A program made the position numbers and the translations under genes. 64,000 nucleotides of DNA from Stenocarpella maydis (lineage: Eukaryota; Ascomycota; Sordariomycetes; Diaporthales; Diaporthaceae), in NCBI GenBank assembly GCA_002270565.1, contig NQMI01000015.1, positions 2,250-66,249 on the forward strand, in the 5' to 3' direction. Every line of letters starts with the position of its first letter. Position 1 is the stretch's first letter. Under the pieces are notes generated by a model. The model did not search any database and was not told where the DNA came from. It saw only the letters and a program-made list of their open reading frames with translations. Shown here one piece after another: positions 26,111-62,446 of the stretch.

Positions 26111-26550
26111 GGGTCGGAAACGTCAGCACACAAGTAGCCGTTTCGGTCAAGGAGATAAGAATGGAGTTGACTGTTATGCGTTCCGCGGTGGAATACCATC
26201 GGTAGAAGGGATTCGAAGATGATGAAATGAAGATATTTAATAGCTAATTCCCTGCAATTCATACCCGATATTCCAGGAATAATCTCAGCTGCGAAGTCAC
26301 TATTTCAGGTTCACACGCTGATCTCAGATACGGATGTACAAACAAGAGCACAATGCGGTGGAATTATCTTTATTATTCAAACGATCGCAGCCTGCAAGTG
26401 GAAGAAAACTGTCTATTTCCGTTTTTCTTGCCACAGATCCTGCCTTTCTAGTTAAAACCTTCCCCAGTTTAACAGATACAACCATTATCTCCATGTAAAC
26501 CATAGATAAAAAATAAAATTAAAAAATAGTAAAGAATAACATTAAGCTCG
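26111..26550. other. Spacer between the methyltransferase fragment and tRNA-Pro
   Basis: About 440 bp with no gene. The end nearest the tRNA is AT-rich and contains its oligo-T terminators. Confidence 0.5.
26508..26526 (-). terminator. Pol III oligo-T terminators of tRNA-Pro
   Basis: The minus strand carries TTTTTT at 26526-26521 and again at 26513-26508, about 25 nt beyond the tRNA 3' end. This is standard for Pol III termination. Confidence 0.65.
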
Positions 26551-26577
26551 GGGTCTGGCCGGGGATTGAACCCGGGA

Positions 26578-26633
26578 CTACATGACCGTTAGTTATGGTG
26601 TGAAGACCCAAAGACGGAACAGAAGCAGCTTAC
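26578..26633 (-). other. Spliceosomal-type intron inside a tRNA variable loop, 56 nt
   Basis: The minus strand begins GTAAGC and ends CATGTAG. An ACTAAC branch-site match lies with its branch adenosine 11 nt before the end; all three fit the fungal consensus. Its length equals that of the mRNA introns of this window (47-125 nt mostly). Removing exactly this GT...AG segment restores the five-base variable loop, and no single nearby alternative cut does so as cleanly. See findings. Confidence 0.75.
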
Positions 26634-26642
26634 CCTCGCGCA

Positions 26643-26659
26643 AACTGCTTTAGGGTGCA
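26643..26659 (-). other. Canonical tRNA intron, 17 nt
   Basis: Located between positions 37 and 38 of the tRNA, the site cut by the tRNA-splicing endonuclease. The intron contains CCCTAA, complementary to TTAGGG of the anticodon loop, the usual anticodon-intron pairing. The boundary can shift by one T without changing the product. Confidence 0.85.
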
Positions 26660-26695
26660 CCCTAAGCGCGAATCATACCACTAGACCACCAGACC

Positions 26696-54232: not shown

Positions 54233-55946
54233 ATGGACGCCAATTGCCTGGAGTTCCCAACGCTGGTGGAGGGCATCAACCCTCTCACCAGCCGACTGCA
54301 CCAGGACGACGAGGAGCAGCAGCAGCAGCAGCAACAACAACCACCGTTGCCCTCGTCGCCGTCGGCGTCTCCGTTCCTGTCGCCGTCCCCGTCCCCTACT
54401 CTCGTCCCATCCGTCGCCTCCTCGGAGGGAATATTCCCCTTCGAGATGGACGCGCCCTCTCCCCAGCGCGCTCCCATCACCATGAGCTCTGCCCCTGCTC
54501 CCGCCGCCGCCGCGGGCTCCGCGCTGTCTCCGCCGTCGGAGCAGCTCAAGAAGGCCAAGAAGAGAAAGGTCTTGCTCATGGGCAAGAGCGGCTCTGGAAA
54601 GAGCAGCATGAGAAGTATCATCTTCTCAAACTTTCTTGCCGTTGACACCCGGCGCCTGTAAGTACTTCTCACTCCAAATCTCACCCTTCCACCGTTTTTC
54701 CTCTTCATCTTCCTTCTTTCCTCACCCCTCCGCCGTGCTATTGCCTTTTTTGAACTCTGCGTCCCTTCGTCACCACGCGGGATTGTTTTGTTTCTGATGA
54801 GATCCAATGTTTGTTTCGCGTGTCGCGCCCCTCGTTGCTGTCGAGCCTCACAGCCTTGGGCCCCTCACTTGCGATGAAGTCACTGCTGACCAAAACTGCT
54901 CATACAGCGGCGCAACCATCGACGTCGATCTGTCGCACGTCAAGTTCCTCGGCAACCTGACCCTGAACCTATGGGACTGCGGAGGCCAGGAGGCCTTCAT
55001 GGAGAACTACATCAACCAGCAGCGAGCACACGTCTTCAGCCACGTCGGCGTGCTCATCTACGTCTTTGACATCGAGAGCCGCGATGTCGATCGTGACCTC
55101 GCCACTTACGTCTCAATCGTTTCGGCCCTCGCCCAGTACTCCCCGGCCGCAAAGGTCTTCGTCCTGGTCCACAAGATGGACCTCATCATGCCGAACATGA
55201 AGGAGTCAGTCTTCAACGAGCGCGTCCGTCTCGTCCGCAACAAGACCTCCGAGGCCCTGCAGAACATCGCCGGCCTGGTTGGTCCCGCCAGAGTCGACAT
55301 CCAGCCCTTCGCAACTTCCATCTGGGACCAGTCTCTGTACAAGGCTTGGTCTTCCATCATCCACGACCTCATTCCCAACCTCGCCCTCATCGAGCAGGAG
55401 CTGGGCGCACTCGGTCGTGCCATCGAGGCTGAGGAGATCTTCCTGTACGAGCGCACCTCCTTCCTCGTCGTCTCGACCTGGAAGTCCGAGGAGGGCCTGC
55501 GAAACCCGCACAGAGATCGGGAGGAGAAGCTCTCCAACTTCATGAAGACGTTCAAGAACCGACTCGCAATGTGGACAGGCACCTCCCGCAATTCAGACCA
55601 GTTCAAGGAGTTTGAGGTCAAGCTCGGTGTCCTCTTCAGCTTCGTCATCATGACCTTCACGACCAACACATACATCCAGCTGGTCCTCCCCCCTGGTGAT
55701 GCACGCTTCAACGCCGCGAAGCTCAACACGCGCATCGCGGCGTCGCACTTCGAGCGCCTTGACGCGCCGCCGGCCAAGGATGCTAAGGGCTCCAGTACCG
55801 GTTCTGCTAAGGGCAGCGACTCTAAGGGACTCTCTGCGGCTATGAGCGGACTGGAAATCAGCGGCGATGAGCAGGGGCACGCTCAGGACGACGACCGCGA
55901 CTTCGGCGCACAATCTGGTGGCCCATCCACCGCGCCTGCCGCCTGA
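54233..55946 (+). CDS. GTR1: Rag-family GTPase Gtr1 (EGO complex, TORC1 signalling)
   Basis: Two exons (54233-54657, 54908-55946), 487 codons. Gtr1 pairs with Gtr2 at the vacuole and in its GTP form activates TORC1 when amino acids are plentiful. The P-loop [16 protein letters not shown], the switch I region DTRRLGATIDV (joined across the intron), and G3 [15 protein letters not shown] are all clear. LVHKMDL supplies the HKxD form of G4 typical of Rag GTPases. The roadblock-like C-terminal half continues to about residue 425, then a disordered tail rich in Ser, Gly, Lys and Asp. The first ATG gives about 115 residues of poly-Gln and Pro/Ser-rich sequence before the P-loop. Yeast Gtr1 has fewer than ten, so the in-frame ATG at 54482 (404 codons) may be the real start. 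The 250-nt intron is the longest in the window. Confidence 0.93.
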
Positions 55947-60829: not shown

Positions 60830-62446
60830 ATGATTCCGGCCAGGGGTTTCGCGCGGGTCAGGCCTGGCCTTGTATTTCAAAATCCAGTACGTGTGGCCAA
60901 GCACCCCTCATCAGTCACGGCGCAACTCGAGAGCTAATCCCCGCGCTTGCAGATATCCTCCAGCACTCCGGCTCGCTCAATACCGCGACAGACAGGCCGT
61001 GTCGCAAGCCCGAGGCAATTTGGGACGGGCCTCAGGGCCAGCGGCAGGCCCTGCCACGGCGCGTATCCGACCGGCCTTTCGTCCAGAGGCAGAATAGGAG
61101 CCGCCGCTATCCTCTCCTCCCAGTCAATCCTCCTGTCGTCGGCGCCTCGGGCACGCTTCGCTTCCACTGGCCATGGCCCTTCACCTGCAGAGGCAGCCGC
61201 ATCTTCGCCGTCACCCTTCTCAGACCCTCACTCCCCTCCCTCCGAATTCCCCTCCGACTTCTCCTCGCTCTCGGATCTCGACGGCGCGTCTCTGCTCAAC
61301 ATCCCCGAAACGATCGGCTACCTGCACAACCTCGGTCTTGACTATGGCTGGGGCCCAACCGCTCTCAGCCAGTGGTTCGTTGAGCATCTCCATATATGGG
61401 GTGGCCTCCCCTGGTGGGCCTCCATCGTTGGATTCGCAGTCATAGTGCGTCTCGTCATGGCCCAGCCCGCCCTGGTCGCCCAGCAGGAGACCGTCAAGAT
61501 GAAGAAGATGCGCAAGGACCCGCTGTTCGACTCGCTCAATGAGAAGTGGATGGCAGCTATGGCGGGCGGGTTGGCCCTGCCACGCGCTGAGTTGGTACAG
61601 CTACGTCTACAGATGACCATCGTCCGCGAGCGGTACGGCGTGAAGACGTGGAAGATGTTCCTGCCCATGCTGCAGGCGCCCCTGGCCTTCGGCATGTTCA
61701 GGTTGACCACCGGCATGTCTTCGCTGCCCGTACCGGGCTTCGATACTGCCGGGGTACTCTGGTTCACAGACTTGACTGTTGCGGACCCCTATATGATCCT
61801 GCCGCTTGTGAGCTCTGTCATGATGTATCTCAGCATAAAGGCAAGTCCAGAGCCCTCCCACACGGACCCTGCGGCGTACTGTAAAAAAAGTCTTCGTCAT
61901 ACTAACACGATCGTCCGGTAAAAGCGCGGTATTCCATACATGACCCCCCAGCAGGCATCCTTCATGAGAGTCGTGCCTTTTATCCTTGGCCCTCTCGGCT
62001 TTTTCATCACGTTCAAAATGGCCGCCGCGGTGCAGCTATACTTTGCCATCACCGCCATGCTCCAATACCTTCAGACCACCTTCTTTCACGTCGGCTGGAT
62101 CCGTAAGGTCTGTGGTCTCCCTCCCATGGAGGAGATGATGCAAAACACCGCCGCCGACGCCAGACCGCGCGCCAGCCCATTCTCCAGACAGGGAGGGGTC
62201 CAGTACCAGGCCCCCCGCACCATCAACACCACTGCCACAGAGAACAAGCTGGCGTCCGACAATCCCCTCGAGGCATTCAAGGAGGCTTGGGCAACCATCA
62301 AGGACAAGTCCAAGAAGCGGGGCGAGACAAACGCAGAGAAGAACACAAAGAAGGAAGCGGAACAATACGAGAAGAAGAGGCGTCAGGAGGAGAATGAGCA
62401 GTTCCTGCAGAGACGGGAGGCGAAAAGGAGGAACGTGCGGAAATAA
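60830..62446 (+). CDS. OXA1: Mitochondrial inner-membrane insertase Oxa1
   Basis: Three exons (60830-60886, 60953-61840, 61925-62446), 488 codons. Oxa1 inserts mitochondrially made and some imported proteins into the inner membrane. The N-terminus is a basic, Ser/Arg-rich presequence (MIPARGFARVRPGLVF, then QTGRVASPRQFG). Membrane segments are WASIVGFAVIVRLVMAQPAL, MFLPMLQAPLAFGMFRL, PYMILPLVSSVMMYLSI, RVVPFILGPLGFFITF and MAAAVQLYFAITAMLQYLQT. A matrix coiled-coil tail rich in Lys and Glu (KDKSKKRGETNAEKNTKKEA) is the ribosome-binding part. The second intron has a GC donor (AAG|GCAAGT) with branch site TACTAAC and AAAAG acceptor. Its 84 nt is a multiple of three but holds an in-frame stop, so it must be spliced. 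Confidence 0.92.

Follow-up and report, generated by a model that had tools for sequence, protein, structure and literature searches.

Putative spliceosomal introns interrupt tRNA genes of five families in a fungal genome

Nuclear tRNA genes of this fungus contain, in addition to canonical introns at position 37/38, a second type of insert that has the splice-site and branch-site signals of an mRNA intron. We found such inserts in 12 of the 72 distinct nuclear tRNA genes that we read in one genome, assembly G000 (53.5 Mb in 312 contigs), from which all genome-wide counts given here are taken. Among the genes found, they are present in all five for Pro-AGG/CGG, all three for initiator Met, the one Ser-GCT gene, two of three Lys-CTT genes and one of three elongator Met genes. 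Judging from the sequence, with a probability of about 0.87, these inserts are U2-type (GT-AG) spliceosomal introns in Pol III tRNA genes that would be removed by the spliceosome, with the 37/38 intron left to the tRNA endonuclease. A first-pass annotation of this DNA had described a single gene of this kind; the phenomenon extends beyond it to five tRNA families and several positions in the tRNA, namely 23/24, 32/33, 34/35, 35/36, 46/47, 48/49 and 59/60 (numbered by hand).

The gene described initially, a tRNA-Pro(AGG), lies in the window, which is the whole 64,000-nt stretch of DNA that was analysed (Table 1). On re-reading, the coordinates that the first-pass annotation had given for the gene and for its 56-nt insert proved exact, as did the lengths of the canonical intron (17 nt) and of the joined exons (72 nt). 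The splice signals of the insert (GTAAGC, ACTAAC and TAG) were confirmed; its presumed branch A, at 26589, precedes the last base of the intron by 11 nt. ARAGORN names the gene Leu(tag) when the insert is in place, and Pro(agg) with a 17-nt intron when the insert is absent; in its bacterial setting the program called no tRNA in the window. The annotation had also seen no decay in stems, A and B boxes or terminator. For the Pro gene this holds in that the A and B boxes are intact by eye, Pro(agg) is called after removal and a T6 run is present, whose role as terminator we infer.

Table 1. Positions of the features discussed in the window, and predicted spliced junctions (marked by a slash) in four tRNA families.
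Feature	Position	Strand	Description
tRNA-Pro(AGG) gene	26551..26695	-	Two introns; ARAGORN gives Pro(agg) after the 56 nt are taken out
Pro(AGG) exon 1	26660..26695	-	nt 1-37; anticodon AGG at 26663-26661
Pro(AGG) canonical intron	26643..26659	-	17 nt, at 37/38; CCCTAA complementary to TTAGGG
Pro(AGG) exon 2	26634..26642	-	nt 38-46 (TGCGCGAGG)
Pro(AGG) spliceosomal-type intron	26578..26633	-	56 nt, at 46/47, variable loop; GTAAGC...ACTAAC...TAG
Pro(AGG) branch-site motif	26588..26592	-	CTAAC; presumed branch A 26589
Pro(AGG) exon 3	26551..26577	-	nt 47 to discriminator base; T arm with B box
T6 run	26521..26526	-	Probable Pol III terminator of Pro(AGG)
GtrA intron	54658-54907		250 nt; GTAAGT...CTGAC...CAG
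OXA1 intron	61808-61924		117 nt; GTGAGC...ACTAAC...AAG
Predicted junction, Pro			GCGCGAGG/TCCCGGG
Predicted junction, initiator Met			GGGGAAGA/GCGCCGGG
Predicted junction, Ser-GCT			ATGGCC/TGCTAA
Predicted junction, elongator Met			TTCAAG/TCTCAC

Genome searches with the Pro gene and with its 72-nt joined exons led to the same six places both times, which comprise five distinct loci (L002-L006; four AGG and one CGG) after a duplicate is counted once. Around the Pro gene, contigs C56 and C100 (window start; G000:C100 around 464775) show no difference in the 3145 bp compared, and to judge by this identity the duplicate is probably an unmerged contig overlap and hence a single locus. The same overlap indicates that copy numbers in the assembly may be inflated. 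All five loci have the insert in the variable loop, each time as GTAAG...CTAAC...YAG, and no intron-free Pro-AGG/CGG copy was present among the loci found with the joined exons. Whether every Pro-AGG copy carries the insert was a check put forward in the first-pass annotation, and the answer is yes for four of four distinct AGG loci and for the one CGG locus. Pro-TGG (L049), for its part, is intronless. The intron lies at 46/47 in four of the five loci and at 48/49 in Pro-AGG-4 (L005), a 2-nt shift relative to L002-L004 and L006 that leaves the spliced tRNA unchanged. Pro-CGG differs from Pro-AGG in one acceptor pair, where the change from T-A to C-G is compensated. The annotation had considered a very recent insertion; the insertion in the Pro genes is not recent, because the similarity of their intron interiors is within 2.2 SD of that of shuffled sequences while the exon sets are identical across the four AGG loci.

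Outside the Pro family, the interrupted genes came to light through tRNA models or arm patterns in which no intron motif was used. Two Lys-CTT genes (L027 and L028) were picked up by the Rfam tRNA scan and are named Gln and His by ARAGORN before removal of their inserts, which sit inside the anticodon (GTATGT...CAG at 35/36 and GTTAGT...CAG at 34/35). Once the insert is taken out, each gene has the anticodon CTT and a canonical intron of 22 nt; the two boundaries are 1 nt apart and the product is the same. A third Lys-CTT copy (L022) has a canonical 66-nt intron alone. Ser-GCT (L086), recovered with a D-arm pattern, is split in the anticodon loop at 32/33; it is the sole locus matched by a genome search with its joined exons, which returned no intron-free copy. 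A first D-arm pattern aimed at the initiator gave no match because the initiator D arm is itself interrupted. With an anticodon-arm pattern, three places matched at one mismatch and another four at three mismatches, and the three one-mismatch places (L141-L143) were read and proved to be complete initiator Met genes, all split in the D stem at 23/24, where removal of the insert restores GCTC/GAGC; none of these three initiator loci is an intron-free copy. Elongator Met L132 has a canonical intron together with GTAGGA...GGCTAAC...TAG in the T loop at 59/60, and L013 and L014 lack the second intron. L132 differs from these two genes by compensated changes in the D stem (GCTT/AAGC vs. GCTC/GAGC) and the anticodon stem (TCGG/CCGA vs. 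TTGG/CCAA). Its fold is less clean, with a canonical intron of 9 nt according to ARAGORN and 29 nt by hand, and the new-type intron splits its B box; Pol III initiation should be weaker as a result, such that L132 may be poorly transcribed. Altogether, 8 of the 12 interrupted genes also contain a canonical 37/38 intron (five Pro, two Lys and one Met). The Lys-CTT pair, with its 1-nt offset, and the Pro family, with the 2-nt offset of L005, are clear examples of intron sliding.

The splice signals are constant across the inserts, and the rest of the intron has drifted. All 12 are 53-60 nt long (mean 56), start with GT, have G at +5 and end in YAG, and all contain CTAAC, with 10-13 nt between its second A and the intron end. 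The GT and the AG fall at the boundaries that restore the tRNA product in 12 of 12. When each intron was shuffled by mononucleotide, a GT start, an AG end and CTAAC near the 3' end occurred together at a frequency of 0 to 1.2e-4; copies within a family are not independent, but the 12 inserts represent five families. The interiors of the Lys pair are recognisably alike (z = 4.0), and those within the Pro and initiator families reach z ≤2.3. Among 34 distinct canonical 37/38 introns of this genome, a control that leaves out eight canonical genes (L037 and L144-L150) and in which some boundaries may be one base off, the combination GT...CTAAC...AG was absent; two begin with GT, none ends in AG and none holds CTAAC. 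The nearest miss is Val-CAC L105 (locus positions 1494-1604), whose canonical 38-nt intron begins GTGAGT and has GTGTGCAG near its end; it looks half spliceosomal, and cutting at those sites gives no tRNA.

The tRNA bodies around the inserts are well preserved. ARAGORN reports the expected isotype for all 12 genes after removal of the insert, compared with one of 12 before, and the A and B boxes are intact by eye in the Pro, Lys, Ser and initiator genes. A run of four or more T starts at most 26 nt downstream of each of the 12 genes, a placement that would be fitting for Pol III termination. The first-pass annotation had worried about an assembly error, which is unlikely because the insert recurs at loci where the flanks and the intron sequences differ; we rejected an assembly artefact on this ground.

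Inserts at several positions of a tRNA could also be ectopic introns cut by the tRNA-splicing endonuclease, as in Cyanidioschyzon or archaea, and the accessible portions of PMC4090602 and PMC9602550 do describe multi-position non-canonical tRNA introns in archaea, nucleomorphs and a red alga. Moreover, three of four central pairs can form in one register for elongator Met and initiator 1 (register shifted by one). However, the 4-bp central helix of a bulge-helix-bulge (BHB) is present in 0 of the 12 inserts in any product-keeping register, by a strict motif in which intron nt 2-5 pair with 3' exon nt 2-5 and registers of up to 3 nt were allowed. Nor would the constant GT, G at +5, CTAAC and YAG be expected of a tRNA endonuclease, the boundaries move together with the GT and the AG, and none of the 12 inserts is at 37/38, the eukaryotic position of introns cut by this enzyme. 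Cutting by the endonuclease is therefore highly unlikely. A bulge-helix-bulge in the 56-nt insert, which the first-pass annotation had named as refuting the spliceosome idea, is absent by the strict motif. Self-splicing by a ribozyme-type intron, or an Ire1-like non-spliceosomal event, is extremely unlikely: we found no point in its support, Rfam at E≤0.01 matches no family in the five Pro loci, and the inserts are short. Group I and II introns are far larger than 53-60 nt, and a CTAAC placed at a constant distance before YAG is a hallmark of spliceosomal introns.

A different alternative accepts the inserts as mRNA introns and holds that the tRNA genes that received them are dead, either silent or decaying, an option that the first-pass annotation had left standing. 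Insert-free copies do exist for Lys-CTT (L022) and elongator Met (L013 and L014), as the death of the interrupted copies would allow. We nevertheless consider dead genes very unlikely because intron-free copies of Pro-AGG/CGG, initiator Met and Ser-GCT were not found among the loci recovered. The exons of the four AGG loci have also stayed identical while their introns drifted, stem changes are compensated (L132 vs. L013/L014, and the Pro-CGG acceptor), the boundary shifts in two families keep the product, downstream T runs accompany all 12 genes, and intact tRNA bodies emerge on removal.

Fungal mRNA introns follow a general consensus at both splice sites and at the branch site. That consensus is the main basis for likening the 12 inserts to mRNA introns of this genome, alongside a comparison with two window introns. 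These two, the delimited ones in GtrA and OXA1, have signals compatible with those of the tRNA inserts, but they measure 250 and 117 nt as against 53-60 nt, and a strict GTAAGT...CTAAC...AG pattern had no match in the window. The CTGAC of the intron in GtrA (a Rag GTPase) is its likely branch site, and 250 nt is long for an mRNA intron of a filamentous ascomycete. By its protein matches the window belongs in Diaporthales, close to Diaporthe: GtrA has 90-92% identity to three named Diaporthe species and OXA1 has 82% identity to D. eres, and for PLC the best named match is Cytospora mali (76%).

The 72 genes of the census, compiled by hand with a script and by eye, comprise 42 with canonical introns only, 18 intronless and 12 with the new type; the census is incomplete, as Phe, Asp, Trp, Ala-AGC, Val-AAC, Leu-AAG, Leu-TAG, Ile-TAT, Thr-TGT and Arg-CCG could not be located confidently, and intron-free copies could lie in unassembled DNA. 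The genome-wide Rfam tRNA search scored 63 of 1343 candidates, and an intronless Gly-GCC in L097 was found by accident instead. A B-box pattern gave 432 matches, compared with 469 for a reversed control, and was of no use for the census, and a covariance model built from the tRNAs of this genome proved intolerant of long inserts. Of the Rfam tRNA hits, about a quarter fall on one contig, G000:C312 (>152 kb), all on one strand, and this contig is probably a large mitochondrial genome. Three odd tRNA-like elements, L129 (G000:C106:7260-7490), L130 (G000:C160:900-1120) and L134 (G000:C246:712840-713090), have a good D arm and acceptor, but their T loop is unusual and a long insert follows the anticodon region. 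The sequences of L129 and L130 are nearly the same, and the three elements are possibly Phe-like genes, tRNA relics or tRNA-derived elements.

In some yeasts the spliceosome is known to act on U6, which is a Pol III RNA. For the genes described here, Pol III would make a precursor of the interrupted tRNA, in which U1 would recognise the 5' site (GT...G) and U2 would recognise CTAAC. By taking out 53-60 nt, the spliceosome would restore the D arm in the initiator, the anticodon loop in Ser-GCT, the anticodon in Lys-CTT, the variable loop in Pro and the T loop in elongator Met, and the tRNA endonuclease together with the ligase would separately remove the 37/38 intron in the eight two-intron genes. 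In Lys-CTT the spliceosome probably acts first, because the anticodon is absent until the first intron is gone. In this scheme we infer Pol III transcription, excision, the lariat, the order of the steps and essentiality. The spliceosomal, dual-pathway interpretation offered in the first-pass annotation is favoured by the interruption of all five Pro genes, all three initiator genes and the only Ser-GCT locus found. With somewhat lower confidence than the nature of the introns, it is likely that translation in this fungus needs the spliceosome at the level of tRNA, with all initiator, AGY-serine and Pro-AGG/CGG tRNA produced via mRNA-type splicing and the Lys anticodon (in two of three genes) assembled by the spliceosome before the endonuclease acts. 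This would entail repeated gain of spliceosomal introns by tRNA genes, which would constitute a new tRNA-intron class, and two machines acting in a fixed order.

The introns themselves are of a known kind; it is their siting, in tRNA genes of essential families and at several positions, that is undescribed in the open PMC text searched (without bioRxiv and most subscription journals), where we found no report of spliceosomal introns in tRNA genes. From the tRNA side they would be a new class of intron. Splicing of tRNA and of mRNA are treated as separate pathways, and one transcript set here appears to need both; all located initiator and AGY-serine tRNA genes appear to be spliceosome-dependent. 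If this is true, the spliceosome is able to process Pol III transcripts that are short and highly structured, a capacity for which these genes offer natural test substrates, and tRNA gene finders misname or miss interrupted genes, as ARAGORN did in all but one of the 12 before removal. In the available text of the tRNAscan-SE 2.0 paper (PMC8450103), the noncanonical intron search is described for archaea and the stem 'spliceosom' does not occur; a search directed at archaea could explain how such genes go unseen.

Some yeasts have spliceosomal introns in their U6 snRNA genes, and such introns are also known from the nuclear rRNA genes of ascomycetes. The present introns are similar to these in that an mRNA-type intron lies in a non-coding RNA gene, and U6 is likewise a Pol III transcript; in contrast, the hosts here are tRNA genes of five families, interrupted at several positions, with exons that are very short and structured, and most of them contain, in addition, an intron that is the substrate of a different enzyme. 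A case of a spliceosomal intron in 18S rDNA appears in the reference list of PMC11782384. Canonical 37/38 introns, the substrates of TSEN, also interrupt tRNA genes and are co-present in 8 of the 12, but they are fixed at 37/38, and GT...CTAAC...AG was found in 0 of the 34 compared. With fungal mRNA introns the inserts share the 5', branch and 3' sites (by the general consensus and two in-window examples), whereas they reside in tRNA genes and the two mRNA introns of the window are longer. Non-canonical introns of eukaryotes are rare, and most single insertions are probable pseudogenes, according to the accessible part of a review of tRNA introns (PMC4090602), the main text of which has no occurrence of the stem 'spliceosom'. 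The ectopic introns of archaea, nucleomorphs and Cyanidioschyzon, as presented in the accessible parts of PMC4090602, PMC9602550 and PMC3978253, resemble the present ones in occupying D-arm, anticodon, variable-region or T-loop sites, with several per gene. Those of archaea and Cyanidioschyzon are described there with BHB-type motifs, whereas the strict motif is found in none of the 12 introns here, which are instead characterised by spliceosomal signals and a uniform length.
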